From NCBI GenBank assembly GCA_018817425.1, contig JAHITX010000126.1, forward strand, positions 1 through 54,368: DNA of 54,368 nucleotides, in the 5' to 3' direction. The notes under the pieces are model-generated. The model saw nothing but the letters and a program-made list of their open reading frames with translations, ran no database searches and was not told the origin of the DNA. Below are positions 58-23,575 of the stretch, one piece after another; position 1 is the stretch's first letter, and the number at the start of each line of letters is the position of its first letter. The DNA is from Pseudomonadota bacterium. GTDB taxonomy: Bacteria > Desulfobacterota > Desulfobacteria > Desulfobacterales > RPRI01. The translations under genes and the position numbers were made by a program.

Positions 58-1752
58 TTGTCATCTATAGTTGATGCGAAGCATTACAATATGGTTAATA
101 TTTCCGACAATCCGGGAAAAGATTATTCATGGTTAAGGCTGGCAGGCATTTTATTTATTTTTCTTATTGCCTATACCTGGGCACAGCCGTTCCGGGACAT
201 ATACGGCCTTGAAACCCGTAATGCACTTATGGCCCGTGAAATGCTTGAAGACGGGATTAGTCTTATTCCAAAAGCACTGGGGCAACCTTATCCCGATTAT
301 CCACCTCTTTACTTCTGGCTTGAAACCCTTTTTTCGAATCCTTCGGGTCATATTACCACCTTAAGCGCAGTACTTCCAAGCGCCCTTTCGGCTATAGGTA
401 TTTTGGCACTTACATTTTTCTTTGGGCGTAGTATCAATATACGTACAGGCTGGCTTTCACTATTAGTACTTGCCACTATCCCTAAATTCTGGCTTGAAGC
501 AAGCAGTGTTACAATTGATATGCTGCTTGCTTTTAATATCACTGCTGCCATTTTCTGTCTTTACTTCAGAGATAATAGCCAACATTTTAGGGGAAAAATT
601 ACTTATGCTATAAGTGCAGTTATTTTCCTGATATTTGCTTTTCTCACCAAAGGTCTCATAGGAATAGTTCTGCCGGGGATATCATGGGGTGGATATCTTC
701 TCTGGGAGAGACGCTGGAAACATTTATTTTCCTTTGTTTTGTTTATGGCTTCTATTGGACTGCTTTGTATGGCAATTGAATTGTTTATCGTTTCCCATGC
801 TGGAGGCAGACAACTGGTTGATGATGTTATAAGGATGCAGATCACGGGCAGAATAACAAGTAAAGCCAATAAATCAGTTTTTTATTACCCTTTACAGCTG
901 CTTGAAATCGTAAGTGTCTGGTGGCTTTTTATTATTCCGGGATTATTTCGTTATGATGATAAAAAATCAGAAAAAAGCATCTTATACCGGTTTCGTCAAA
1001 CGGTAACATCTCATTCGGCAAACCGCTTGGCAATTACATGGTTTGCAGGAACAGTTGCTGTTTTCTCACTTGCCAGCACAAAACATTCCCGATACCTTTT
1101 ACCGCTCTATCCTGCGGCTGCTATTATTCTTGCTTCTTTAATAGAGGATATTATTATCAAAGGCTCCATACTCTATAAAAATATATTTCAAAATATTATA
1201 AACGCTCTAATTTTGGCAGTATTGCTGGCTGGTTTGGTTTTTTCCTGTTTATACAGACAATTGGTGTTTGTCCCTTTTGCATTCGTTTTTATCTGGTTGG
1301 CAGCAGGGATATTTTTGTGGTTTTTCATAAGAAGACGAATAATAGAGAAATATAGTTTGATTGCCTCAATACTGCTTCTTCTCATCGTGGGACTTTCCGG
1401 ATCAAATCTTATGGTAATCCCGGCATTTTCCCATATGGCATCCGGCCGGGCTTTTATAGAAGCAGCAGAATCGAAGGTTGACCCAAAACTTCCGCTTGTA
1501 CTTTATGGTATAAATAATGATGGCGATGGCGTAAAATTTGCTCTGTACAGCAACCGTAAACCATCTGCAATTCGTTTTGTAAACACTGCCGAAGAGTTAA
1601 ATATGATTACAAAACCTTGCCTTTTAGTTTCTCGTCTTAATGATAATACAGAGCTTAAAAGTCTTTTATACGGGGAAAAATGCAATAAGATAGCAGAAGG
1701 GAAAATCTACTCGAAACAATTTGTCGCCTGCTTGCTCGGTTCAGGAGAATAG
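58..1752 (+). CDS. ArnT/PMT-like integral membrane glycosyltransferase (GT39 type), paralogue 1
   Basis: A polytopic membrane protein of about 553-564 residues. It has a first transmembrane helix (LAGILFIFLIAYTW), then the periplasmic motif GLETRNALMAREML, then GQPYPDYPPLYFW. This is the first-loop signature of lipid-phosphate-sugar dependent glycosyltransferases (ArnT, PMT family), which move a sugar from undecaprenyl phosphate to an envelope acceptor. Many hydrophobic helices follow, and there is a soluble C-terminal part from about residue 470. In ArnT the motif begins DETRYAE; here the first acid is Leu (LETRN) and only the second remains. The start is uncertain: TTG at 58 gives 11 extra residues and ATG at 91 is equally plausible; neither has a clear ribosome-binding site. 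The end overlaps the region of the next gene's Shine-Dalgarno, so the two are probably cotranscribed. Donor and acceptor are unknown. Confidence 0.8.
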   Translation: MSSIVDAKHYNMVNISDNPGKDYSWLRLAGILFIFLIAYTWAQPFRDIYGLETRNALMAREMLEDGISLIPKALGQPYPDYPPLYFWLETLFSNPSGHITTLSAVLPSALSAIGILALTFFFGRSINIRTGWLSLLVLATIPKFWLEASSVTIDMLLAFNITAAIFCLYFRDNSQHFRGKITYAISAVIFLIFAFLTKGLIGIVLPGISWGGYLLWERRWKHLFSFVLFMASIGLLCMAIELFIVSHAGGRQLVDDVIRMQITGRITSKANKSVFYYPLQLLEIVSVWWLFIIPGLFRYDDKKSEKSILYRFRQTVTSHSANRLAITWFAGTVAVFSLASTKHSRYLLPLYPAAAIILASLIEDIIIKGSILYKNIFQNIINALILAVLLAGLVFSCLYRQLVFVPFAFVFIWLAAGIFLWFFIRRRIIEKYSLIASILLLLIVGLSGSNLMVIPAFSHMASGRAFIEAAESKVDPKLPLVLYGINNDGDGVKFALYSNRKPSAIRFVNTAEELNMITKPCLLVSRLNDNTELKSLLYGEKCNKIAEGKIYSKQFVACLLGSGE

Positions 1753-1759
1753 CCAATTT

Positions 1760-3439
1760 ATGAATAAAGAAATAAAAAAATATACGATAGCGCTTATAGC
1801 CTTATATGTTTTATGCTATATACTGCCGCTTGGATACAGAGATTTGGTAATTCCTGATGAAACACGCTACGCCGAAATCGCCAGGGAGATGATTTCAGGA
1901 GGCGACTGGGTTGTTCCGCATTTAAACGGATTACGATACTTTGAAAAACCTGTTTTAGGATACTGGGCACATGCATTCTCTATCATGCTTTTCGGAGAAA
2001 ACAATTTTGCTGTTCGTTTCCCTTCAGCGCTTGCAGTCGGACTTTCAGCATTGTTGATATATTTGCTTGTATTTAAAGTTTATCGTAAGGAAGATAAAAA
2101 TAATTATTTACCGACTGTTCTTGCAGTACTTGTCTTTCTGACTTCTTTTGAAGTGTTGGGTCTGGGTAATACAGCTGTCCTCGATAGTATATTTGCTCTC
2201 TTTTTAACAGCTTCCATAGCCTTTTTTTTTATTGCTTCTGAAGAAAACCTTAAATCAGGAAGAGAAAAACTATTTTTATTGTTATCCGGAATATTTTGCG
2301 GACTTGCATTTCTTACCAAGGGATTTCTTGCCTTTGCCCTTCCCATAATGGTAATAGCACCTTATCTTGTCTGGCAAAAACGTTATAAAGATATATTACG
2401 CATGAGCTGGCTTCCTCTTCTTTTCGCAGTGCTTGTATCTTTGCCATGGAGCATTGCTATCTACTTAAGAGAACCGGATTTCTGGCACTATTTTGTCTGG
2501 ACTGAACACATCCAGCGTTTTATGGCCAATAACGCCCAGCATAGTAAATCATTCTGGTTCTTCTGCCTTATTTCACCGGCAGCTTTATTGCCATGGACAT
2601 TCTTAATTCCGGCAACCATTGCCGGAATTAGAATGCAAATAAAATTTCTTGACGCAAGCAGCCGGCTGGTAAGGTTTTCTATTTGTTGGCTTGTACTGCC
2701 TTTTTTGTTTTTTTCACTTTCAAAAGGCAAGCTTATAACTTATATTCTTCCCTGCTTTGCACCTTTTTCCGTTCTTATGGCGCTCGGCCTTTCGAATATG
2801 ACTGAAAAGGTTAAAAACAGATCTTTTAAGTTCGGAGTAGTTTTTGCCGGTATGATATTTTCGCTGATACTTCTGGCTTTTATCTATATTCAACTTTTCG
2901 GCTATCATGATTTCTATCCTTATACCCAGCCATGGAAAATGCTAATGGCTGTTAACAGTCTTGTTTTTTTTATTTTATTTTGCGGCCTTTCTTTAAAAAG
3001 CCAAAATAGCAGATCCAGCGTTTTGCTTTTCGGGATAGCTCCGCTTCTGCTGTTTTTTTCAGCTCATTTCATTGTGCCTGATTTGACCTTAGAAAAGAAG
3101 GCACCCGGCACTCTTCTTGAAAGAAATAAACAGGCTCTCGGACAGGAATCTATAATCTTATCCGATTCAAGTACTGTTGGGGCAGTCTGCTGGTATATGA
3201 AGCGAAGTGATGTATACTTACTTGAAGGTGCCGGCGAACTTGATTATGGAATAAGTTGTGCAGATTCTGCGTTTAGATTGATAGATATTAAATCGGCTGT
3301 AAGTTTGATCAATGAAAATCGTGGCAAAACAGTGCTGGTATCCAAAATTAATAATATCCGCAAATGGAAAGATCGGCTTCCCGAACCTGTTTATCAAGAT
3401 GATAACGGCTTTAACGGATTTGTGTTCCGGCGTTATTAA
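1760..3439 (+). CDS. ArnT-like glycosyltransferase (GT39 type), paralogue 2
   Basis: A 559-residue polytopic membrane protein that keeps the canonical ArnT first-loop signature: PDETRYAEIAREM, then GDWVVPHLNG and YFEKPVLGYW. The D-E pair is the acidic site thought to be catalytic in ArnT/PMT enzymes. It is therefore likely to be an active transferase that uses a polyprenyl-phosphate sugar at the outer face of the inner membrane, as ArnT does when it modifies lipid A with aminoarabinose. The substrate here cannot be read from sequence. ATG 1760 was chosen over an upstream in-frame start at 1721 because AGGAG at 1743-1747 lies just ahead and the helix KKYTIALIALYVLCYI follows directly. Start and stop of paralogues 1 and 2 are 7 nt apart. 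A soluble domain occupies roughly the last 120 residues. Confidence 0.85.
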   Translation: MNKEIKKYTIALIALYVLCYILPLGYRDLVIPDETRYAEIAREMISGGDWVVPHLNGLRYFEKPVLGYWAHAFSIMLFGENNFAVRFPSALAVGLSALLIYLLVFKVYRKEDKNNYLPTVLAVLVFLTSFEVLGLGNTAVLDSIFALFLTASIAFFFIASEENLKSGREKLFLLLSGIFCGLAFLTKGFLAFALPIMVIAPYLVWQKRYKDILRMSWLPLLFAVLVSLPWSIAIYLREPDFWHYFVWTEHIQRFMANNAQHSKSFWFFCLISPAALLPWTFLIPATIAGIRMQIKFLDASSRLVRFSICWLVLPFLFFSLSKGKLITYILPCFAPFSVLMALGLSNMTEKVKNRSFKFGVVFAGMIFSLILLAFIYIQLFGYHDFYPYTQPWKMLMAVNSLVFFILFCGLSLKSQNSRSSVLLFGIAPLLLFFSAHFIVPDLTLEKKAPGTLLERNKQALGQESIILSDSSTVGAVCWYMKRSDVYLLEGAGELDYGISCADSAFRLIDIKSAVSLINENRGKTVLVSKINNIRKWKDRLPEPVYQDDNGFNGFVFRRY

Positions 3440-3560
3440 ATATAAATAAATATCCCAAAAAATAAGGTTGCTTCATAAAAGATGTTGCTTAAAGTTTGGC
3501 GTAATTAACGAAGAAGAGTATTTCAAGAGTTTCACAGACAGCCTGAATCAGGAGTAAATA

Positions 3561-5153
3561 ATCTCTGTACATACCAAATACAGCTTTTTTATTTTAATAG
3601 CTGGAATTATTTGTTTCAGTTCATTTCTTTCCGATGACTTTCTTGGGCTTGATGACAGATATGCAGTTTTTGCACAGGAAATGCTTCGTAACGGACCGAC
3701 ATTTTTTCCAACTACTTATGGAAAGCCTTATCCTGATTACCCTGCTACTGGGACATTAATGATATACCTTGCCTCACTGCCAGGAGGTCATGTTACACCT
3801 TTTACTGCGGCTATTCCAACAGCCATAGTATCGGCATTAATTCTGGTGCTCATATTTCGTATCGGGGCCATCCATTCACTGGAATGGGGACTTATTGGAG
3901 TTGGCTTTATTCTTCTTACCAAGACTTTTGTAAGTTTGTCTCGTTGTGTTTCGCCGGATCAATTTGTAAGCTTGGCTGCAGCATTAGGGTTTTATATAAT
4001 CTATACGGCTGATGTGTTCGACAAAAAAAGGCGCCTGTTTTGGATACCGCTGATATTTGTCGGTGGTTTTTTGTTTCGTGGGCCCTTAGGATTAATAATC
4101 CCGGCAGCAGTGGTCTGCACATACTATCTGGTTGATAAAAAGATAAAATTCTTTTCTCTGATGTCTTTTGTTGCGTTGTTGGTGATGATTTTATGCTGTG
4201 CCGGACTTCTGGCAGCAGCAAGATATCAGGGTGGTGATATATTTATGCATGATGTTATAAGGATGCAGGCGATAGGCCGGTTATATGAAAAAAGCCACGG
4301 ATTCCTGTATTATTTTACTGAAGGTCTTAATCAATATGCATTATGTTATCCTGTTGCTCTTATCGTCTTAATTATATTTTGGAAGAAGATATGGGAATAT
4401 GAGAGGGATGAATACAGACTTTTGGCAAAGCTTGCGATATGGGCATTTATTGTGATAATCGGTTTGTCCTTTGCCTCAACCAAAAAAGAAAGATATATTT
4501 TGCCTGCTATGCCTGCATTGGCGCTTATTTCAGGATGGTTGATATACGGGGCAAAGGATGAAATCAGAGCGCTTAAGCTAAAACGGGGTTTTCTTAAGTT
4601 ATGTAAATATTTTCCTGCTTTAGCGTGTTTATGTGTGGTAGCTATCGGATATTTTAATTTATTAAAATCGGACGTTGATTGGCATACGGCTTCAATATTA
4701 ACCGGCATTATAGCTATAGTGGTGTGGGCGGCAGATAGACGCCTGAAAGGTTCACTAAATGAGCTTTTAAAAATTGGAGCCGGTGCGCTGACGTTATTAA
4801 TTTTGATAACCAACATCTCAGAACCTTATGCCGTTAACACCAGAGGAAACCGTCCATTTGTGGAAAAAATCTCATCAATGCAAAAAAAGAGCCCGGCTAA
4901 TATAGTATTTTATCAACTTAGGCGAGACAAGGAGGCACTATCATTACTCGCGATATATGAAGAGCCTGTTGAGCCGCTATTCATCTATAAAGCAGGAGAA
5001 ATAACCTCATGTCCGGGCGGATCATATATTATTGCCACTGAGGAGGCTTTTAAACAACTGCCTGAGAAAGTAAAAACTCTTGTAACAACAGCATACAAAG
5101 GCAAATTCTACAAAGAAGATTGTTTGGTATTAATCAGGAAATTACAAGAATGA
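3561..5153 (+). CDS. ArnT/PMT-like glycosyltransferase (GT39 type), paralogue 3, no canonical start codon
   Basis: A membrane protein closest to paralogue 1. It shares GKPYPDYPA (GQPYPDYPP in paralogue 1), a GGHVTPF/GHITTL segment and HDVIRMQAIGR (DDVIRMQITGR). The first ATG in frame, 3681, falls inside the conserved loop GLDDRYAVFAQEML, so a start there would remove helix 1 and the catalytic loop. Reading upstream, the frame encodes a good first helix (FFILIAGIICFSSFL) back to a TAA at 3555-3557 but contains no ATG, GTG, TTG or CTG. AGGAG at 3550-3554 is 6 nt before ATC 3561, so a rare ATC/ATA start, or a mutated or misread start codon, is possible. I place the start at 3561 for that reason. 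As in paralogue 1 the first acid of the DE pair is Leu (LDDRYA). Function beyond the family is unknown. Confidence 0.7.
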   Translation: MSVHTKYSFFILIAGIICFSSFLSDDFLGLDDRYAVFAQEMLRNGPTFFPTTYGKPYPDYPATGTLMIYLASLPGGHVTPFTAAIPTAIVSALILVLIFRIGAIHSLEWGLIGVGFILLTKTFVSLSRCVSPDQFVSLAAALGFYIIYTADVFDKKRRLFWIPLIFVGGFLFRGPLGLIIPAAVVCTYYLVDKKIKFFSLMSFVALLVMILCCAGLLAAARYQGGDIFMHDVIRMQAIGRLYEKSHGFLYYFTEGLNQYALCYPVALIVLIIFWKKIWEYERDEYRLLAKLAIWAFIVIIGLSFASTKKERYILPAMPALALISGWLIYGAKDEIRALKLKRGFLKLCKYFPALACLCVVAIGYFNLLKSDVDWHTASILTGIIAIVVWAADRRLKGSLNELLKIGAGALTLLILITNISEPYAVNTRGNRPFVEKISSMQKKSPANIVFYQLRRDKEALSLLAIYEEPVEPLFIYKAGEITSCPGGSYIIATEEAFKQLPEKVKTLVTTAYKGKFYKEDCLVLIRKLQE

Positions 5154-7745: not shown

Positions 7746-8258
7746 ATGTACACAGAAACAGTGATGGATCACTTCAAAAAACCTAGAAATGTAGGAGAAA
7801 TGAAAGATCCGGATGGAGTGGGAGAAATAGGCAATCCTGTCTGTGGCGATATGATGAATATATATATCAAGGTTAAAGATGATATAATCGAAGATATAAG
7901 TTTTCAGACATTTGGATGCGGAGCTGCAATTGCAGTTTCCAGCATGCTGACAGAAATGGCCAAAGGTAAAACCATAGAAGAAGCAAAAAAAATTACAAAT
8001 AAATCTGTAGCTGAGGCACTTCAAGGCCTTCCTAAAAACAAGCTCCACTGTTCAAACCTTGGCGCAGATGCCCTCCAACTCGCCATAAAAGATTATGAAG
8101 ACAGAAAAGCAGGAAAAGTAAGAGTTAAGCTGCCTATGGAAGATATTCATACACATGAAGAAGGTGAAGAATGCAAATGCCCGTATTGCAGTGGCGAGAT
8201 TGATCCAAAACATGAGTTTTGCGATAATTGCGGACGAGAAATAAGCGATATTCATTAG
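7746..8258 (+). CDS. NifU/IscU-like Fe-S scaffold protein with C-terminal zinc ribbon
   Basis: A 170-residue protein. Residues 1-125 are an IscU/NifU N-terminal scaffold domain with the three cluster-binding cysteines C33 (NPVCGD), C58 (TFGCGAA) and C102 (LHCSNLG), and the conserved aspartate after C33. Such proteins assemble a [2Fe-2S] or [4Fe-4S] cluster and pass it to apoproteins. Unlike plain IscU, the protein continues into an acidic, histidine-containing linker and a four-cysteine zinc ribbon (CPYC...FCDNCGREI, about 142-165). The start has a strong Shine-Dalgarno (GAGGGGTGAG). It is paired with a NifS-like gene downstream, as usual for these systems, but the two are now separated by a hairpin element whose first base supplies the G of the TAG stop. 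Confidence 0.92.
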   Translation: MYTETVMDHFKKPRNVGEMKDPDGVGEIGNPVCGDMMNIYIKVKDDIIEDISFQTFGCGAAIAVSSMLTEMAKGKTIEEAKKITNKSVAEALQGLPKNKLHCSNLGADALQLAIKDYEDRKAGKVRVKLPMEDIHTHEEGEECKCPYCSGEIDPKHEFCDNCGREISDIH

Positions 8259-8427: not shown

Positions 8428-9600
8428 ATGAAGGTAACAAATCTTGATTATATATCTGCCAACCCTCTTTCGCCTGAAGTTAAAGAAGCCATGATAGAAG
8501 CAATTAAAAAGGATTATGGCAATCCTTCAAGCACACACAGCTTTGGGGACGAAGCCAGAGATGCCATTGATAAGGCTCGTGAAAATGTTGCACTCTTAAT
8601 AAACAGCCCTTCTCCTGATAATATAGTCTTTACTTCATCCGGAACGGAGTCAATTAATCATGCTATAAAAGGTGTGGCTTTTGCCCATGCAAAAAAGGGA
8701 AAACATATCATAACATCAAATATAGAACATAATTCTGTATTAAAATCCCTGCGCAGATTAACAAAATTAGGTTACACGGTAACCTCCGTTGAAGTTGACA
8801 AAAATGGTGTTGTGGATCCGGCGAATGTACAAAAGGCTATAACCGATCAGACCATACTGATATCAATAATGCATGGAAATAATGAGATTGGCACAATTCA
8901 GCCGATAAAGGAAATAGCCCGTATTGCACAAGAAAATAATGTGCTTTTTCATTCTGATTGTGTGGCCTCGGTTGGAGTAATACCAATTGATGTTCAGGAA
9001 TCAGGAATAGATCTTATAAGCTTTGCCGCTAATCAATTCAACGGCCCTTCCGGAGTTGGAGGACTTTATATACGAAAAGGTGTAAGCCTCTTTCCTCTGA
9101 TTGATGGGGGTGGCCAGGAAGGCAGCAGAAGAGCCGGTACGGAGAATTTAATAGGCATAATAGGTATGGGGGTAGCAGCAGAAATTGCTAACCGGGAAAT
9201 GCAGTCCAGATTGGCCCATATGAAAAAGCTCAAAAATAAGCTTATAACCGGGTTGAAGGGAAATATTGGTGATATCATTATTAATGGACACCCTGAACTT
9301 TCTCTGCCAAACCTTGTATCGCTTTGTGTAAAATATATTGAGGGAGAGAGCATAGTCCTTATGCTTGATGAAGAAAAAATAGCAGTGTCCACCCGATCCG
9401 CCTGTGCATCAGGTTCTCTTAGAGCCTCACACGTTCTTCTTTCAATTGATATGGACTATGCCGATGCACAAGGAACCCTTATAATAACCTTTGGGAAAGA
9501 TACCACAGAAGCTGAGATCGATCGTTTTGTCGATGTATTGAAAAAAGTTGTTGCTATATTAAGAGAAATGTCGCCTTTATATAAAAAGAACAAGATCTGA
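8428..9600 (+). CDS. NifS/IscS-like protein lacking the PLP-binding lysine
   Basis: A 390-residue protein with the full fold and length of a class V aminotransferase-type cysteine desulfurase. It keeps GNPSSTHSFG, FTSSGTESIN, EH101, HSD177, the GSRRAGTEN segment and the loop cysteine C326 in STRSACASGS. Residues needed for PLP chemistry are changed. Where the family has S-x-H-K-x-x-G-P-K-G, this protein reads AANQFNGPSG, with Asn202-Gln203 replacing His-Lys. The glutamine that contacts PLP (HVDAxQ) is Ala180. The Arg that holds the substrate carboxylate is Ile352 (GTLIITFG). It should not form the internal aldimine or desulfurate cysteine. It may instead act as a scaffold partner that supplies C326 as a ligand to the neighbouring NifU-like protein. 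The frame is intact, so it is not a simple pseudogene. AAGGAG precedes the ATG. Confidence 0.88.
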   Translation: MKVTNLDYISANPLSPEVKEAMIEAIKKDYGNPSSTHSFGDEARDAIDKARENVALLINSPSPDNIVFTSSGTESINHAIKGVAFAHAKKGKHIITSNIEHNSVLKSLRRLTKLGYTVTSVEVDKNGVVDPANVQKAITDQTILISIMHGNNEIGTIQPIKEIARIAQENNVLFHSDCVASVGVIPIDVQESGIDLISFAANQFNGPSGVGGLYIRKGVSLFPLIDGGGQEGSRRAGTENLIGIIGMGVAAEIANREMQSRLAHMKKLKNKLITGLKGNIGDIIINGHPELSLPNLVSLCVKYIEGESIVLMLDEEKIAVSTRSACASGSLRASHVLLSIDMDYADAQGTLIITFGKDTTEAEIDRFVDVLKKVVAILREMSPLYKKNKI

Positions 9601-9628: not shown

Positions 9629-10669
9629 ATGAGTTGGGATTGGGAAAAACTTAAGAACCAGCAGGAAAGTAAACAAACTATTCCGCCACAAATGGAAAAC
9701 TTTTTCAAAAAGTTTTCTGATAAAAAGATTCCCGGACTTCCGATAATTATCCTTGTTATCTTTGTTCTGTTTCTTGCCTCTTCTATGTTTTATACAATAG
9801 GGATTGATGAGGTAGGAATTGTGCAGCGGTTTGGAAAATACACAAAAACAACACAACCCGGGCTTAATTTCAAATTGCCGGCAGGCATAGAAAAAGTAAC
9901 AAAATTAAAAATAAGACGCGTTTATAAAAAGGAGTTTGGATTCAGCTCAACAAGACCAGAGGGGAGACAGCTTTTTTCTTCTCCAACTGTAAACGAAAAT
10001 ATATCCCTGATGCTTACAGGAGATCTGAATGTAGCTCTTGCCCCCTGGATTGTTCATTACAGAATCAATGACCCTTATAATTTTTTATTTAAAATCAGAG
10101 AAGTTGATTCTCTGCTGTCAGATATGTCCGAAGCCGCAATGCGGCTTGTTATAGGAGACAGAAGTATAAATGAAGTCATAAGTAAGCGTGAAGAAATAGC
10201 TGATGAAGCAAAGATAGTTCTTCAGGCCGAACTTGATAAATCCGAAGCAGGAATAAGTATTGCAACAATCGAAATGGAAAAAACAAATGTGCCGGAACCT
10301 GTTCAGCCATCATTTAATGAAGTCAACCAGGCAGTTCAGGAAAAAGAAAAACTGATATATCAGGCAAAAGAAGAATATAATAAAGAATTGCCTAAAGCAA
10401 GAGGTGAAGCCGAAAGGACAATCAGGATAGCTGAAGGATACGCTCTGGACAGAGTAAACCGGGCAAAGGGCGATGCTTCAAGATTTGTTGCGCTTTACAC
10501 TGAATATGTGAAAGCAAAAGATGTAACCCAAAGAAGGATGTATCTTGAAATGTTAAATGATCTTCTCCCGAAACTTGGAAACAAATACATAATAGACGCC
10601 GATCAGAAGAATCTTTTACCGTTTCTAAATCTTGCAAACCAAACAGGTGCCACAAAAAATGAAAAATAG
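9629..10669 (+). CDS. hflK: HflK-like SPFH membrane protein
   Basis: A 346-residue protein with a short cytoplasmic N-terminus, one transmembrane helix (about 34-57, LPIIILVIFVLFLASSMFY), then an SPFH/band 7 domain beginning GIDEVGIVQRFGKYTKTTQPGLNFKL and a long coiled-coil-prone helix (about 220-290). It pairs with HflC, overlapping it by 11 nt. In E. coli HflK and HflC form a large periplasmic cage around the FtsH protease and modulate degradation of membrane proteins. The N-terminus lacks the long Gly-rich stretch of E. coli HflK. It starts 28 nt after the NifS-like gene with AAGGA before the ATG, so it may be cotranscribed with the Fe-S genes. Confidence 0.9.
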   Translation: MSWDWEKLKNQQESKQTIPPQMENFFKKFSDKKIPGLPIIILVIFVLFLASSMFYTIGIDEVGIVQRFGKYTKTTQPGLNFKLPAGIEKVTKLKIRRVYKKEFGFSSTRPEGRQLFSSPTVNENISLMLTGDLNVALAPWIVHYRINDPYNFLFKIREVDSLLSDMSEAAMRLVIGDRSINEVISKREEIADEAKIVLQAELDKSEAGISIATIEMEKTNVPEPVQPSFNEVNQAVQEKEKLIYQAKEEYNKELPKARGEAERTIRIAEGYALDRVNRAKGDASRFVALYTEYVKAKDVTQRRMYLEMLNDLLPKLGNKYIIDADQKNLLPFLNLANQTGATKNEK

Positions 10670-11603
10670 AGCTATCACCATATTAATAGGTTGTATGATC
10701 GCAATTTTTGTTACATTAGGTTCCGCTTTTATCGTGGATGAAACAGAACAGGTAATTGTAACACAATTCGGAAAAGTAATCAGATCTCCTATAAAAGAAC
10801 CTGGAATTTATTTTAAAATACCGTTTTTTCAGGAAGTAAATTATTTTCCTAAAAACCTCTTGCAGTGGGACGGCAAGCCAGGCCAGATACCAACTCTTGA
10901 CAAAACATATCTATGGATTGATACATTTGCCCGCTGGAAAATAGTCGATCCTGTAAAATTTTTTCAGACCGTCACTAGTGTAAATAGTGCTCTTGGACGG
11001 CTTGACGATATAATAGATCCTGCCCTAAGAAATCTAATTACATCCTATAAACTTATTGAAACGGTACGCAGGAGCAACAGAGAGCTTGATACTTTTGAAG
11101 CGGGCATAGAAATTACGGAAAAAAAGACCAGACCATTATACAAAATTACTACCGGAAGAGAAGTTATTATGCAAGATATTCTCGAACAGGCACAACCTAA
11201 ACTGGCTAAATTCGGCATTGAGCTGGTTGATGTTAAGATCAAACGCATTAATTATGTAAGGGAGGTCAGAGAATCCGTATATGGCCGAATGATTGCGGAA
11301 CGAAAACAAATAGCTGAAAAATTCCGATCGGAAGGACATGGGGAAGCTCAAAAAATTATCGGAGAAAAAGAGCGTGACTTAAAACAAATAACCTCAGAAG
11401 CATATAAAAAGGCACAGGAACTTAAAGGCGAGGCTGATGCACAAGCAACCAAGATATACGCTAAAGCATTCGGTGCTGATCCGGCTTTCTATTCTTTTGT
11501 AAAAACCCTTGAGGTTTATAACGAATCATTGGGCAAAGACAGCTCACTTGTGCTTACAACTGATTCTGAATTATTTAAATATCTTAAAGGATATCAAAAA
11601 TAA
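10659..11603 (+). CDS. hflC: HflC-like SPFH membrane protein
   Basis: A 314-residue partner of HflK. It has an N-terminal signal-anchor helix (AITILIGCMIAIFVTLGSAF) followed by an SPFH domain (VDETEQVIVTQFGKVI, then KEPGIYFKIPF) and a charged helical C-terminal half with RIAERKQIAEKFRSEG-type repeats, as in HflC. I chose ATG 10659 rather than an in-frame TTG at 10632 because it places the anchor at the N-terminus and gives the short overlap with hflK usual for this pair. AGGTG at 10643-10647 is a weak ribosome-binding site. It ends 10 nt before the second hairpin element. Confidence 0.9.
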   Translation: MKNRAITILIGCMIAIFVTLGSAFIVDETEQVIVTQFGKVIRSPIKEPGIYFKIPFFQEVNYFPKNLLQWDGKPGQIPTLDKTYLWIDTFARWKIVDPVKFFQTVTSVNSALGRLDDIIDPALRNLITSYKLIETVRRSNRELDTFEAGIEITEKKTRPLYKITTGREVIMQDILEQAQPKLAKFGIELVDVKIKRINYVREVRESVYGRMIAERKQIAEKFRSEGHGEAQKIIGEKERDLKQITSEAYKKAQELKGEADAQATKIYAKAFGADPAFYSFVKTLEVYNESLGKDSSLVLTTDSELFKYLKGYQK

Positions 11604-17222: not shown

Positions 17223-17714
17223 TTATTCTATCGAAAACGAAGACGTACCGCTTTCCTCATCAATAATACAATAAAATTCTCTTCTTCCGGCTATGCTATC
17301 AAGATTTATCGTATCCGGTGTTCCGCCATCACTGTACAACGTAGCTTCTATACGAACAAAACCATCACTACTATTATCTTCAATAAGCGCCTTTGTATTT
17401 GGAGAAAGAATTAAAACAGGATCCCTGGAAGCTCCATCAGTAGCTGTTTTTTCACCAATACGAACTCCGTCTTCCGGATTATGAGAATAATCAACATCAT
17501 CATAAGACACTATACTATCCATTACGGCAGTTAGCAATTGCCTGCCGTCGCCTAATGCCGCAGAATCGTAGGCTTTCGCCCTGCTACTTACGAACATATC
17601 AGAAGCAATTACCACAAGAATGCCTATGATTGCCATGATAACCATAAGTTCCATCAAAGTAAAGCCTTTGTTTTCTTTTAATTTATTAAGGCCTAATATA
17701 AGTTCTTCTTTCAT
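17223..17714 (-). CDS. PilA-like type IV prepilin
   Basis: A 163-residue prepilin, the last gene of the pilin operon. A short leader ends KENKG and is followed by the class III signal FTLMELMVIMAIIGILVVIA, cut before F1 by prepilin peptidase. E5 is present. The segment SSRAKAYDSAALGDGR matches the alpha-1 helix of PilA/GspG-type pilins. Where typical pilins have the helix-kinking proline 22 (AIPQF), this one reads ASDMF with Asp22. The globular part is about 100 residues with only one cysteine (near the C-terminus), so no disulfide loop is expected. I chose ATG 17714 over a start 39 nt upstream because AGGAGAGG lies directly before it and the leader then has normal length. It may be a pilin or a minor pseudopilin. 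Confidence 0.82.
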   Translation of the reverse strand: MKEELILGLNKLKENKGFTLMELMVIMAIIGILVVIASDMFVSSRAKAYDSAALGDGRQLLTAVMDSIVSYDDVDYSHNPEDGVRIGEKTATDGASRDPVLILSPNTKALIEDNSSDGFVRIEATLYSDGGTPDTINLDSIAGRREFYCIIDEESGTSSFSIE

Positions 17715-17731
17715 ATGCCTCTCCTTATATG

Positions 17732-18649
17732 TCAACTTCCGGCTTTTTGCCATTTCCCATCGATATTTACATAAGCTATATCTTTTTTATCGGGATATTG
17801 CAGATTACCGAAACCCAAGATTCCATTTTTATCTTTCCACACAAGGTATTTTTTGCTCTGCTCTGAAGCTGTAACATCAAGGTTTCTTTTATTCCCGAAA
17901 CTTTTTTCATCAGATACTAAAGTTTTTTTAGTTGTTGAAGATCTCTTCACATCATAACATTTTCCATCACTATATATTGAGATTCTTGCAATATGCGGAT
18001 ACTGAACATTGCCAAAACCTCTAACTCCCTTACCATCTTTCCAGACAAGATGTTTACGGCTAATTGTATTTTCAAAACCCATCACATTTTCAGTTTCCTT
18101 AATAAGTGAAAACTGAGGTTCGATCAGCTGAGCAGATATTATTTTTTCTTCTTTTTTAGAAACCGCTGCAGCAAGTCTGGAAACAAGATCAGAAATATCG
18201 GAAGATGCAACTTTTTTAGATGTCGAAGCTGCGGCTTTTGACGATGCAATAAAAACTTTCTTTCCTGATACTGGTTTAAGGTTTTTATCTATCGATGCAA
18301 CCAACGTTTTGCCTCCAACAATCAAACTTTTACTTAGCTTAAAATTATTCTTGCCGGGAACATATTCCCATATCACATCTTCAATAAAAGCCTTATTAGC
18401 AATATATTTAGGATAAAGATCGCTTAGAGATGCAGGATACTTCTTATTATCAACATAATATCTTTCAATGCTTCGACCCATTTTACTAAGCCCTGCTATC
18501 GGACTTTTATTGGCAATATCAACAATCCTAGCATATTCCTTTTCATTCCATTTCTTTATTTGTTCTTCTTTAGAACGATCTTTATAAGAAAAGTAACCAA
18601 CTGCAATAAGGATAGCCAGTATGCACATTATGATATATTTTTTATTCAT
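17732..18649 (-). CDS. unrecognised secreted protein with duplicated motif, in pilin operon
   Basis: A 305-residue protein with an N-terminal membrane anchor (YIIMCILAILIAVGYFSY). The segment IERYYVDNKKYPASLSDLYPKYI resembles the region after the helix in GspG-type pseudopilins. A Lys/Ser/Ala-rich linker follows. The C-terminal half carries a motif twice: LVWKDGKGVRGFGNVQYP and LVWKDKNGILGFGNLQYP, about 60 residues apart. No cysteine pairs or catalytic motifs are apparent. It ends 17 bp before the PilA-like gene and probably shares its transcript. A role in pilus assembly or as a pilus-associated protein is suggested only by location and anchor type. Confidence 0.75.
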   Translation of the reverse strand: MNKKYIIMCILAILIAVGYFSYKDRSKEEQIKKWNEKEYARIVDIANKSPIAGLSKMGRSIERYYVDNKKYPASLSDLYPKYIANKAFIEDVIWEYVPGKNNFKLSKSLIVGGKTLVASIDKNLKPVSGKKVFIASSKAAASTSKKVASSDISDLVSRLAAAVSKKEEKIISAQLIEPQFSLIKETENVMGFENTISRKHLVWKDGKGVRGFGNVQYPHIARISIYSDGKCYDVKRSSTTKKTLVSDEKSFGNKRNLDVTASEQSKKYLVWKDKNGILGFGNLQYPDKKDIAYVNIDGKWQKAGS

Positions 18650-19270: not shown

Positions 19271-22200
19271 TTATAATTCTTTCCAGTAAAAAGGAATCAT
19301 TGAGCCAGGCATATCAACTTCAGGCAAAGGATATATTCTTCCACCTACGGATATGAAACCCGCCGCTTTACCTTGCCTGATTACAATAGAAACCCCGGAA
19401 GGTAAATGCTCACCAATGCTAAGATATCTGTCAAGCCTAGTATAGTTTTTCTTATCTCCATCCTCTTTGTCAATGATACCATCATCATTAATATCAGTAT
19501 CATTATCCGTAAAGAAATTATATACTGCGTTTCCTGTACAGTAATTAACCGCAAATGTCCTGGCGTTACCTTTGTATTCACATGGATTATCGTTGATGGC
19601 ATTTGGTTGATAAGTAGGCGCATATACTACTTTGGCAAATAATGTAACCGGATCTATACATTTTTCACCGTCATGATCATTTTGGTTAACAAAATCTTCG
19701 TCATTATCTACAGAAGCACAGACATCCAGTTCGGAGAACAAAAGATACCAGCCTTTTTCTTTTTCTCTGAGAAAATTTTTGATATTGGCCTTTGTCTGCG
19801 AACTTTTTATAGGATCAGTGTCAAACAACAAAAGATCAGGCTCCATAGCCCCGCATGTTACGTTAAGAAGATCTTTTTCAGTAAAAAACTCGCTATTTTC
19901 AGCATATGACCCTTGGTTCGTATTGTAGTATGCATGCGCATCGTAAAAAGCATAAAGTCCGTTTTTAACCGGTTCACATCCAGTTGATGATTTTGTAAAA
20001 CCTATAAAAGTTGGATGTTCTCTATCACCGGTTCCCATATAAAGAACAGGTACATCGGTAAAACAGTTTCCTGCAGATGATACTTCGGGACTGTAAAAAG
20101 TTTTTCTGGGATTACATATATCCGCACCCAACGCCGGATCAAATTTAATACTTGCTAAGTCGGGATGATCATCGCCAGTTGACCATGTGGAAAATTGTTC
20201 CTTATAGTAATAATCGGAGCGTTGATCAGTCATGGGATTCATTTTGAATATAAGATTCAATTCAAAGTCTGACGTGTTGCTGTTATAAGAAAGTTTCCAA
20301 ACCTGTCCGTATATGTCCGCCATATAGGCTGCAGAAAATACTCCCTTGGGACCGGTTACAACATTCGGATCTGCCGGGAAACAGTATTTCATCTGGGGTT
20401 CAAGAGTGCTATCGTATACGAATTGTTTTGCTATACTTCCGTCAGCAATGTTCAGAATATATATGCCACGTCCGGTATCATCTTTAAAAGTTGAAGTCAG
20501 CTCAAAATTTCTCGTAAGATCTGACCTGTCTTCTTTATCCGAATCATATCCTCCGGGTATAAGAAGATAACTTGCATACGTACCTAAACCTGTATCCAAT
20601 TTAATATGCTTGGGTGTGGCAAAACTTAAGCCCAATTCTGGCAGATTACTATTAGTTACCTTCCACTTGACTGTCCAGTCGCCCGCTGTCTTACTGGATA
20701 CATCCAGGGCATAATATGCCTTTCCACCCCGCCTTAAACCGAAAACCAAAAGTTTTTTATTATCACTTCCATCTTTATATTCCAGCAGCATCGGAGAACC
20801 ATCCACAGTATATACTTTTTGGCTGTCAGATTTGCTTGGATCAAAGTTTTTTAATTTTGTTATTACTTCTGTAGGCATAAAAGCAAAAACTTCATCTCCG
20901 CTATCATTATCAAATATGTGCAGCATGCCATCATTTGCACCTACAGCAATATAGCGTTTTTCAAGAATACCACCTGAATCCAGATAATCGATAATCTTTG
21001 GGCTTGAATGTATAATCGGTCCAAGGGGCCATCTTTTTGAAACCGGAGATCCTAATTCAAGAGGATCTCCTCCGGCATCCAGGGCTGTGGCTGCTGTATG
21101 GGAATCATAAGTATAACCATAAATAAAGTTTACAATATCATACACATCAGCATCCTGTGGCACTCCAAGTTCTGCTTTTGTAAGAGTATCCGTCCCAACT
21201 TTAACAAGATTTAATGAGCCGTCACATTTGTAAATATTTCTAAAAGTTGCATTAGTTGTCGTTAGTTTTCCGGAAGTATATGGTATTTTATTGTAAAGAA
21301 CCTGGGCTACTCCGCCTTTTTCAACATCACCTCCGTCAAAACTGCTTGACCAGAAAGATGTTGTTTCCGGAATCATTTCACCAACACATGTTGTCGCTGA
21401 TTTATTTGTTTTATCAACTACATACCATTCAGCATCATTTTCGCAATCAGGTTTTTCCCCATAAAGCAGTCCGTATTTTTTAATATTTCCTGTCCAGTAA
21501 AGACTCTCGTTCGGCTTAAAAAGAGCCATATAAAGTCTGTCACCGGACTGAACCCTGTTTGTTTCATCCACAGAAACAACCGGGGCAGTATATGAAGTAT
21601 ATTCCGCTATAAGAATCCCCAATGCATAAAAAGCATTAACAAGCTGGGACTTTGAATATGCCGTAAGGTACACGCCATTAGACAGTTCCGAAGCATGTTT
21701 TAACATTGATGATTCGGTGCTGAAACCAATATTGTGAACAACAATATTATCTGCGGAACGCTCTCTTTCATCTTCGGGAATCGGTGAATAATCCAAAAAT
21801 CTATGAGAATACATAAATCCAGCTATATCATCATAATAATCAGGATCAGGAGTAGGATTTTGATAAGGATCCTGGGTATAATGATATTGAGTGTCTTCGG
21901 CATTATCAAGCTCAGCATAATTTGTAACTGATGAATTCCAGTCAACCCCTAAAGTATCATTATCCGCATAGCCATCTGAAATTGTAATTACAAAGTTCTG
22001 GTTGCAACTCCTTTGAATCAGGTCAGATCTGGTATTGAATTCTTGCAGGACAAGATCCAATGACTCTGCGATATTTGAAGGGCCTGATGCGCTAAAATGC
22101 AGCAAATTATTAATAACTCCCTGTCTCTGCTCATCATCATTAAAACTCGGATTCATTGCAGGAGTTCCGTGTGATTCGCCAAATGCCTGAACCCCCCAGT

Positions 22201-23575
22201 TAACCTTTCCTCGTGTTGCTTCGACAACATTAATAATTGCGTCAATAGTTGCTTCAAGCCTTGTGAAAAATTTATAATCGGTCTTTGATTGGTATTGATA
22301 TGAATCTATTTTCCAACCTGTGGATACAGTATCAGGATCAGAATCGGTAATGAAGCGAACAAGAACCTGTTTGCCCGTTATCCAGCCTGTCCAGCCGTCT
22401 GCCGGCATGGAAGTAATAATAATAGCCGGGTCTCCACTTGTTCCGCTTTCATCATAGAGCTCTATCTTGTCACCTGCTGCAAGAGAAAGGCTTTCAAAAT
22501 GAACTTTGATTTTTGATGCTTCTCCGTTATAGATAATATTATTGGTATCCCTATCCTGTAAGGAATCGTAAGCAGGAAAATAATTTCCATCATAATCTTT
22601 GGGCGGAACCAGGTAAAAATCAACAACCGGAGTATAAAACTCGGCAGGGTAAGTGCAGTATGTCCATGCCTCATAGTCTTTATTCTGATTGGTTGTTATC
22701 CACAGGTTATAGACCGTTTGCATATTAATCCAGTTGCCGGTAATAAAGAAATAGTCTTTTGCCTTTCCGTCATCAGTGGCAGCCAGATTAACATCTGAAG
22801 TATATGAAGACGCAGGGTTTGTTGCCGCCAAGCTGCTATTTCCTCCGGATTTGTAAAAATAACCGCTGAAGGTATATCCGGGAGCCCTGATAAGGCCGGC
22901 AAATCCTTTATCTACTCTTGATCCGTCAGGATTTTCCTGCCAGTCATGAAGTTTCTTTTCCTGATTATTCGGCAGCGGTTCTCCATCAAAAGTAACCATC
23001 ACTTCCCCTGTTGTCGAATCCACTACGGTGCTCACACGCCCCTCATATCCTGCCTCTCCAGGATGCTTTCCATTTATATCTTTGAGTTCTCCTGCTGCTG
23101 TGATATACGTTTTTGTATCTGCCAACCCGTCACCATACCATAAATAAGACGGATCGGCAGCATCACCCGTAATTCCGTTTGCAAAACCTATATTGCCGTT
23201 TAAAAGATATATTTTAGTTCTGTCAAAAGCGTTTGAATCATTATAATACGCAGAACCGGTTCCGCTTCCTCCGGCAACAGGGTCCCATGCAGCTTTCCAG
23301 TCGCAGGCTCCTCCATCACAAAGCTCGCATATATATTTGTAGAATTGATGATAATCTATATCATTATCATAAACACCAAAAGCCATACTATCGGAATTAT
23401 CCACAAGAATAGTTACATTATGCCTGACTTTCGGCCGGTAAATATCTGTGTCGTCTGCAAAAGCAAGCATACTTGCTGCCGACAGAAATATAGCTATAGC
23501 AAGACCTAAATAAATATATGGTCTTGTTTTCATCTTTCCACTTGATTTAACCACAGAGTTTCTGATTGGTTTCAT
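19271..23575 (-). CDS. pilY1: PilY1/PilC-type pilus tip adhesin
   Basis: A 1434-residue exported protein. A signal peptide precedes ADDTDIYRP. The N-terminal part has a von Willebrand A-like region with a MIDAS motif, VDNSDSM (D59-x-S61-x-S63), and FVITISDGYADND. The C-terminal third is the PilC/PilY1 beta-propeller: GANDGMLHIFDNDSGDEVFAFMP (given here in part), VYTVDGSPMLLEY, LLVFGLRRGGKAYYALDVS and YMADIYGQVWKL. Near the C-terminus there is a calcium-binding-like loop (DTDINDDGIIDKEDGD). PilY1 sits at the pilus tip with the minor pilins and controls extension, retraction and adhesion, often with Ca2+. A strong AAGGAGG precedes the ATG. It is preceded by the pilX, pilV, pilW and fimT-like genes, the usual minor-pilin order. 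Confidence 0.92.
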   Translation of the reverse strand: MKPIRNSVVKSSGKMKTRPYIYLGLAIAIFLSAASMLAFADDTDIYRPKVRHNVTILVDNSDSMAFGVYDNDIDYHQFYKYICELCDGGACDWKAAWDPVAGGSGTGSAYYNDSNAFDRTKIYLLNGNIGFANGITGDAADPSYLWYGDGLADTKTYITAAGELKDINGKHPGEAGYEGRVSTVVDSTTGEVMVTFDGEPLPNNQEKKLHDWQENPDGSRVDKGFAGLIRAPGYTFSGYFYKSGGNSSLAATNPASSYTSDVNLAATDDGKAKDYFFITGNWINMQTVYNLWITTNQNKDYEAWTYCTYPAEFYTPVVDFYLVPPKDYDGNYFPAYDSLQDRDTNNIIYNGEASKIKVHFESLSLAAGDKIELYDESGTSGDPAIIITSMPADGWTGWITGKQVLVRFITDSDPDTVSTGWKIDSYQYQSKTDYKFFTRLEATIDAIINVVEATRGKVNWGVQAFGESHGTPAMNPSFNDDEQRQGVINNLLHFSASGPSNIAESLDLVLQEFNTRSDLIQRSCNQNFVITISDGYADNDTLGVDWNSSVTNYAELDNAEDTQYHYTQDPYQNPTPDPDYYDDIAGFMYSHRFLDYSPIPEDERERSADNIVVHNIGFSTESSMLKHASELSNGVYLTAYSKSQLVNAFYALGILIAEYTSYTAPVVSVDETNRVQSGDRLYMALFKPNESLYWTGNIKKYGLLYGEKPDCENDAEWYVVDKTNKSATTCVGEMIPETTSFWSSSFDGGDVEKGGVAQVLYNKIPYTSGKLTTTNATFRNIYKCDGSLNLVKVGTDTLTKAELGVPQDADVYDIVNFIYGYTYDSHTAATALDAGGDPLELGSPVSKRWPLGPIIHSSPKIIDYLDSGGILEKRYIAVGANDGMLHIFDNDSGDEVFAFMPTEVITKLKNFDPSKSDSQKVYTVDGSPMLLEYKDGSDNKKLLVFGLRRGGKAYYALDVSSKTAGDWTVKWKVTNSNLPELGLSFATPKHIKLDTGLGTYASYLLIPGGYDSDKEDRSDLTRNFELTSTFKDDTGRGIYILNIADGSIAKQFVYDSTLEPQMKYCFPADPNVVTGPKGVFSAAYMADIYGQVWKLSYNSNTSDFELNLIFKMNPMTDQRSDYYYKEQFSTWSTGDDHPDLASIKFDPALGADICNPRKTFYSPEVSSAGNCFTDVPVLYMGTGDREHPTFIGFTKSSTGCEPVKNGLYAFYDAHAYYNTNQGSYAENSEFFTEKDLLNVTCGAMEPDLLLFDTDPIKSSQTKANIKNFLREKEKGWYLLFSELDVCASVDNDEDFVNQNDHDGEKCIDPVTLFAKVVYAPTYQPNAINDNPCEYKGNARTFAVNYCTGNAVYNFFTDNDTDINDDGIIDKEDGDKKNYTRLDRYLSIGEHLPSGVSIVIRQGKAAGFISVGGRIYPLPEVDMPGSMIPFYWKEL

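Follow-up and report, generated by a model that had tools for sequence, protein, structure and literature searches.

This study asked what an IscS/NifS-like protein still does in a bacterium once its PLP lysine has been lost, given that ISC-type iron-sulfur (Fe-S) cluster assembly in bacteria is taken to receive its sulfur through cysteine desulfurases. The window, meaning the whole stretch of DNA analysed, is a contig of 54,368 nucleotides (JAHITX010000126.1, assembly GCA_018817425.1) from a member of the Desulfobacterales. It encodes such a protein, here called S, directly after a small scaffold protein, U. The features needed for the argument are as follows.

7746..8258, plus strand: U, a NifU_N/IscU-type scaffold of 170 aa, with the cluster-site residues Cys33, Asp35, Cys58 and Cys102
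8172..8231, plus strand: zinc-ribbon-like tail of U, Cys143 to Cys162, CxCxxC...CxxC (from Cys conservation and weak family matches)
8428..9600, plus strand: S, an IscS/NifS-like protein without the PLP lysine, an ORF of 390 aa with its frame intact
8965..8967, plus strand: codon 180 of S, Ala replacing the PLP-contacting Gln (from alignment and orthologue counts)
9034..9036, plus strand: codon 203 of S, Gln replacing the PLP Schiff-base Lys (from alignment and orthologue counts)
9403..9405, plus strand: codon 326 of S, the mobile-loop Cys (from alignment and orthologue counts)
9481..9483, plus strand: codon 352 of S, Ile replacing the substrate-binding Arg (from orthologue counts)

Alignment of S with the second NifS of the same genome (L001) and with other homologues placed FAANQFNGPSG of S opposite LSGHKIHAPKG, with Asn202 at the position of the His and Gln203 at that of the PLP Lys. 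Likewise, DCVASVG stands opposite DAVQAMG, with Ala180 at the Gln position, and GTLIIT opposite GSIRFS, with Ile352 at the Arg position, while the loop Cys326 is retained within TRSACAS. The alignments give the positions, while the roles of the Lys (Schiff base), the Gln (PLP contact) and the Arg (substrate) follow work on IscS. The initial annotation had claimed the loss of these three residues from an intact frame that keeps C326, and had called for an alignment with IscS/NifS homologues, which confirmed all three substitutions.

By family and by fold S belongs with IscS. It scored 248 bits against the Pfam family Aminotran_5, and its score of 304.8 bits for the IscS subfamily model NF002806 exceeds the cut-off of 304 by 0.8 bits, so that automatic annotation may label proteins of this type cysteine desulfurases. 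It lies below the cut-off of the NifS equivalog TIGR03402 (450.7 bits, cut-off 530.75), for which L001 scores 629.3, and below the cut-off of the IscS equivalog too. The AlphaFold2 model of S has a pLDDT of 90.7, and its 20 best fold matches among solved structures, found with Foldseek, are all IscS/Nfs1 chains (TM to query 0.92-0.97), including human Nfs1, Archaeoglobus fulgidus IscS and E. coli IscS. Compared with the group I cysteine desulfurases (IscS/NifS), then, S has the fold, the family similarity and the loop Cys, but lacks the Schiff-base Lys of the His-Lys pair, the substrate Arg and the PLP-contacting Gln. With the lysine-less IscS of A. fulgidus it shares the missing Lys, the loop Cys and an adjacent IscU gene.

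The partner gene lies 169 bases upstream of S. U passes the NCBIfam model TIGR03419 (NifU_clost) with 194.8 bits against a cut-off of 187.9, scores 169 bits against Pfam NifU_N, and has the three cluster cysteines and the Asp of a NifU_N/IscU scaffold. An alignment of 95 rows, made up of 94 partners of S orthologues and the window's U a second time, has Cys102 in all 95 rows and Cys33, Asp35 and Cys58 in 93, the remaining two rows starting later in the protein. In the tail, Cys145, Cys148 and Cys159 are present in 95 of 95 rows, Cys162 in 94 and Cys143 in 93. Four queries gave weak matches to zinc-ribbon families, mostly below cut-off, and L052 alone passed one, Zn_Ribbon_1. The AlphaFold model of U gives the tail at low confidence, so it is by sequence that this segment is a candidate zinc ribbon.

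Among 389 genomes of the order, 85 gave a match of at least 471 bits, the next match being at 363 bits; these order-wide searches used draft assemblies, and those for S and for NifS/IscS-type proteins scored at most four candidates per genome. Within the best 80 of 587 relatives on named contigs were 20 loci (L042-L061) with 57-74% identity to S, labelled Desulfobacterales, Deltaproteobacteria, Desulfobacca, Syntrophus and others, and U lies upstream of the S orthologue in all 20. For residue counts, a set of 97 orthologues (clade A) was defined as the tblastn matches of at least 430 bits among the fetched loci, 112 loci being reduced to 97 proteins by merging identical ones. In 94 of the 97, U lies upstream of S within 419 bases, and the remaining three are at contig ends, which bears out the earlier claim of an adjacent NifU-like partner.

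None of the 97 orthologues has any of the three catalytic residues. Position 203 is occupied by Thr (34), Pro (32), Gln (13), Ser (7), Arg (7), Ala (2), Ile (1) or Gly (1), and never by Lys; it is not conserved as Gln. Position 180 is Asp in 86, Ala in 7, Thr in 2, and Ser and Asn in one each, never Gln, and position 352 is Val in 83, Ile in 6, Leu in 6, and Met and X in one each, never Arg. In contrast to these, His101, Asn152, Asp177, Asn202, Cys326 and Gln348 are invariant, and position 323 is always basic (Arg 81, Lys 16).

These data bear on the idea that S is a decaying paralogue without function, for which one could cite the variable residue at the Lys site. A close orthologue with U upstream, at 10001-11116 of locus L061, could also be cited; its frame is intact but some 15 residues, the Cys loop among them, are missing, and, having scored under the 430-bit cut, it lies outside the counts for the 97 proteins. 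This protein indicates that the loop Cys may be dispensable in places, or else that its assembly is faulty. Decay is nevertheless extremely improbable. The dN/dS values of S against two congeners are 0.09 and 0.07 (0.070/0.77 and 0.071/1.04), so selection on S is purifying; the loop Cys and the partner are constant features of the 97 proteins, and the gene is present in 85 of the 389 genomes. A sequencing error or pseudogene was rejected on the same dN/dS values and the 97 lysine-less orthologues. The loss of residues in S is thus not local decay or chance.

The initial annotation had also raised the possibility that a Lys from another position serves as the Schiff base in homologues. None is evident, because the sole position with Lys in more than 90% of the lysine-less clade described below, Lys81, has Lys as its commonest residue in the lysine-bearing homologues as well (29 of 54); a takeover of the Schiff-base role by another Lys was therefore rejected. 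A related alternative is that S holds PLP or PMP non-covalently and catalyses some other reaction without a Schiff-base Lys. The invariant His101, Asn152 and Asp177, which we take to be PLP contacts, mean that PLP could still be bound and used, and this counts against a catalytically silent S; the retention of Thr238 in 72 of 97 orthologues likewise favours such an enzyme. Set against this are the complete absence of the substrate Arg and the Gln, the want of a replacement Lys, the loss of Thr238 in the other 25 and the lack of a conserved metabolic neighbour, so that we consider such an enzyme very unlikely.

A tree of 84 proteins was used to place the loss. It contained 26 of the 97 clade-A proteins, seven of clade B and five other lysine-less proteins, together with 27 of the 54 named lysine-bearing homologues and 19 lysine-bearing proteins from the order. 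All 38 lysine-less proteins fell into one clade with support of 100/100, requiring a single change of Lys state, and the same split was recovered in a quick search without 38 active-site columns (SH-aLRT 98). The window genome's own NifS, L001, is on the lysine-bearing side. The tree is unrooted; since Lys is usual in the family, it was probably lost rather than gained.

Besides clade A, the lysine-less group comprises a clade B, found in the same order, and five further proteins, among them some from Scalindua, Omnitrophota and Anaerolineales MAGs. The members of clade B (L279-L284, L021, L108) are IscS-like too; their motif ends in LGAPKG and their loop reads NTGSACASKA. The five proteins outside both clades (L062, L063, L064, L075, L094) have Gln at the Lys site in four cases and Arg in one.

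A U match was found at 32 loci of named homologues with a lysine-bearing NifS/IscS match (within L065-L121); it lies downstream in 29 of them, and none of the 32 U homologues has a zinc-ribbon-like tail. Among the other lysine-less loci, the U of L108 (clade B) has the tail, those of L062 and L021 do not, and the four basal proteins L063, L064, L075 and L094 have no U match in the fetched flanks. The pairing and the tail therefore belong to clade A rather than to every lysine-less protein. No third conserved gene was found across the 97 S-U loci: the commonest other family occurs at 21 of them and is probably spurious, because its ORF is antisense to U, and a gene that we take to be nadA-like lies nearby at eight. 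In the window, S is followed by genes that are presumably HflK/HflC-like and U is preceded by what appears to be a two-component system, neither of which is common as a neighbour across the 97 loci. Promoter and terminator scans gave signals about equal to those of shuffled sequences.

Whether S and U could form the only assembly system of a cell was examined first for the window's organism. Its genome encodes L001, a lysine-bearing NifS adjoining a long NifU, and has no match to SufB/D; a dsrA match of 621 bits, over the cut-off, agrees with the sulfate-reducer setting assumed at the outset. A second, lysine-containing desulfurase is thus present, so the organism is not desulfurase-free, and S-U as its sole Fe-S system was rejected, as L001 keeps the Lys. 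The pair is, in this organism, a second system parallel to NifS-NifU. L001 has 41% identity to S, the same fold family and likewise a NifU-type partner gene, but it has the His-Lys, Gln and Arg residues and passes the NifS cut-off (629 bits), which S does not, and the C-terminal part of its 276-aa NifU does not resemble the tail of U.

The picture differs between relatives. Another NifS/IscS-type match was found in 68 of 80 pair-bearing genomes, and of 48 additional copies examined in genomes of this kind, 44 have the Lys and four belong to clade B. The other 12 had no second match at 1e-20. For eight of these, a PF00266 search at 1e-6 returned only S, a phosphoserine aminotransferase and matches of at most 41.1 bits; the last are presumably other PLP enzymes, and the name of the aminotransferase is likewise our assignment. 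The remaining four (G130, G068, G183, G191) are 79-84% complete. G130 resembled the eight in a search at 1e-10, G068 and G183 had one further distant PF00266 match each, and G191, with a distant Lys-bearing relative among its matches, was excluded from the desulfurase-less count. An additional genome, G058, belongs to the same genus as G106 and G140; it has a fragment of S at a contig edge (60% identical, no Lys), apart from which the PF00266 search found only that phosphoserine aminotransferase and a 38-bit match.

Six pair-bearing genomes were consequently left in which no lysine-bearing desulfurase or SufB/D was detected: G069 (99% complete), G140 (99%, contamination 6), G058 (97%), G106 (93%), G159 (91%) and G223 (91%). 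All six have dsrA, which was found in 18 of 19 genomes tested, the exception being G258. G212 (86% complete) resembles the six in having the pair and no detected desulfurase or SufB/D, whereas G258 and G309, with the pair and no detected desulfurase, do have SufB/D. G071 has two NifS/IscS-type matches, one of clade A and one of clade B and neither with the Lys, together with SufB/D; this genome was outside the PF00266 check. The PF00266 and PF01458 searches were positive in all 14 named control genomes. Across the order, SufB/D is rarer with the pair (16 of 85 genomes) than without it (157 of 304), with a Fisher p of 3.5e-8 that is uncorrected for kinship and counts G058 as lacking the pair. 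The earlier description of a 'desulfurase-free' ISC system of bacteria therefore fails for the window's genome, with its lysine-bearing NifS and NifU, but appears to hold for several of its relatives.

These genomes help to weigh two further explanations. Cys326 of S might be a station in a persulfide relay, receiving sulfane sulfur from an active NifS or another donor and handing it to U. Its invariance in the 97 orthologues would suit this role, as would the mostly Lys-bearing NifS/IscS copies that accompany the pair in 68 of 80 genomes, the organism's own included; but six pair genomes, 91-99% complete, offer no PF00266-type desulfurase as feeder (rhodaneses being outside the search), and we regard the relay as unlikely. 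Alternatively, S might act in regulation or trafficking, occupying U or other IscS-binding proteins and so restraining or routing assembly by another system. Regulatory pseudoenzymes commonly lose catalysis while keeping fold and partner, a pattern that S would fit, and the 68 genomes would supply a system to regulate. The same six relatives, however, show no other tested assembly system, and U retains its cluster ligands; we regard a role in regulation or trafficking as quite unlikely.

Absence of a desulfurase is not confined to genomes with the pair. In the order, 36 of 389 genomes had no NifS/IscS-type match at all, and among 20 of these that were listed, 12 had SufB/D and eight did not; these eight have no clade-A pair either. 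Seven of the eight (G015, G019, G039, G076, G110, G139, G149) are 65-83% complete, but the eighth, G054, is rated at 100%, and searching with PF00266 likewise detected no desulfurase in G054, G015, G019 or G139. For G054 (L319), in which nothing was detected, either the absence is false or some further system is present, and system-less drafts of this kind imply that some absences in the set are false or unexplained. G208 (L318, 96% complete) and G155 (L320, 99%) have SufB/D without the pair, and PF00266 at 1e-9 found only the phosphoserine aminotransferase; they apparently possess SUF/SMS-type scaffolds without a cysteine desulfurase. Desulfurase absence is accordingly not peculiar to the pair and is commoner in the order than the pair alone explains, a pattern that agrees with a general use of sulfide.

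Loss of desulfurase chemistry in an IscS homologue has a precedent. In excerpts of two papers, A. fulgidus IscS is described as having Asp in place of the Lys and no desulfurase activity, with Cys321 acting as a ligand to the cluster on IscU (PMC7585200, PMC9769115). The A. fulgidus IscS-IscU complex (PDB 4EB5, 4EB7 and 4HVK, and the D199K variant 4R5F) thus resembles S-U in its IscS fold without the PLP Lys, its loop Cys and its IscU partner (PMC7585200, PMC9769115), so the likeness proposed in the initial annotation was upheld both by fold and by the published loss. Foldseek alignments gave 42-44% identity between S and A. fulgidus IscS. They differ in that the Lys site is Asp in the archaeal protein (PMC7585200) and Thr, Pro, Gln, Ser, Arg, Ala, Ile or Gly in the S orthologues, and in the zinc-ribbon-like tail of U and the whole bacterial clade that is lysine-less here. 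A special kinship of this clade with A. fulgidus IscS is not suggested by the order of profile scores, as a profile built from six lysine-less proteins that lie outside clade A gave it 503 bits, less than the 577 bits of the lysine-bearing 9wep. IscS1 of Methanosarcina acetivorans is also reported, in the part of PMC7585200 that mentions it, to be without the catalytic Lys, and a mode of action similar to that of A. fulgidus IscS is proposed for it; the IscS1-IscU1 pair is archaeal and is likened to S-U by description only (PMC7585200).

Other known systems share single aspects. The MIS system (MisS-MisU, e.g., of Helicobacter pylori) is, from excerpts of PMC10653786, also a two-gene unit of an IscS-like and an IscU-like protein, but it has a cysteine desulfurase (PMC12192291, in part), whereas the catalytic Lys, Gln and Arg are missing from S. 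Identification of S as MisS was rejected, MisS being a lysine-bearing desulfurase. The SMS system of methanogens (SmsCB/SufBC) is described, in the same excerpts of PMC12192291, as assembling Fe-S clusters from sulfide without a desulfurase, as is proposed for S-U, but its scaffold, an ABC ATPase with a SufB-like protein, is unrelated to U, and SufB/D went undetected in the window's genome. In anaerobic E. coli, according to excerpts of PMC13015791, H2S rescues the loss of IscS and not that of IscU; the same source has H2S slightly helping cells that lack both, which counts against the explanation preferred here. Desulfurase-dead IscS is therefore already published for archaea, while neither the bacterial clade nor its use as a sole system was found in open-licence literature: no title or abstract opening in open-licence PubMed Central described a bacterial lysine-less IscS.

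The explanation that best accommodates these observations, to which we give a probability of about 0.6, is that S, a catalytically silent homologue of IscS, would be the structural half of an Fe-S assembly complex of the (S-U)2 type with sulfide as its sulfur source. What is seen is that the catalytic residues are lost across a conserved clade, that the loop Cys is kept, that the cluster site of U is intact, that the two genes are encoded together and that some drafts lack other systems alongside. On this model S would dock U as IscS docks IscU, and the loop Cys326 might complete or gate the cluster site beside the three cysteines of U, in the manner of Cys321 of A. fulgidus IscS. The sulfur would be inorganic sulfide from dissimilatory sulfate or sulfite reduction, not cysteine, and the zinc-ribbon-like tail of U may help to handle metal or to dock. 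The use of free sulfide and the bridged cluster that the initial annotation raised are inferred features of this model. S-U would work beside a normal NifS-NifU in the window's organism and is probably the sole system of some relatives. Counting against this explanation are the NifS and NifU of the window's own genome, the loop-less L061, the four basal proteins with no U match in their fetched flanks and the genomes that show no desulfurase although they do not have the pair.

For the six relatives, S-U may be the sole system and may be fed by sulfide; a lysine-less S that is still paired with U, together with this possible sole use, suggests that clusters are made directly from sulfide. The wider proposal is that desulfurase chemistry has gone from the IscS-like S of a bacterial lineage, that S and the zinc-ribbon U build clusters from sulfide, and that they are the sole system, with no desulfurase and no SUF, in some sulfate reducers. 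It is weakened by the further genomes in which nothing was detected and by the basal proteins with no U close by, and we put it forward tentatively, at somewhat less than even odds. If the pair does run on sulfide, ISC-type assembly needs no desulfurase chemistry in sulfidic cells, and this would bear on the origin of Fe-S assembly before a cysteine-based sulfur supply. Bacterial proteins of the S family also allow the structural and the catalytic role of IscS to be told apart, which until now has depended on A. fulgidus IscS.

Elsewhere in the window, three consecutive ORFs at 58-5153 on the plus strand resemble, by our assumption, membrane glycosyltransferases of the ArnT type. An ORF of 1434 aa at 19271-23575 on the minus strand lies near prepilin-like ORFs at 17223-18649; it has a VWA-like start and is PilY1-like in appearance.
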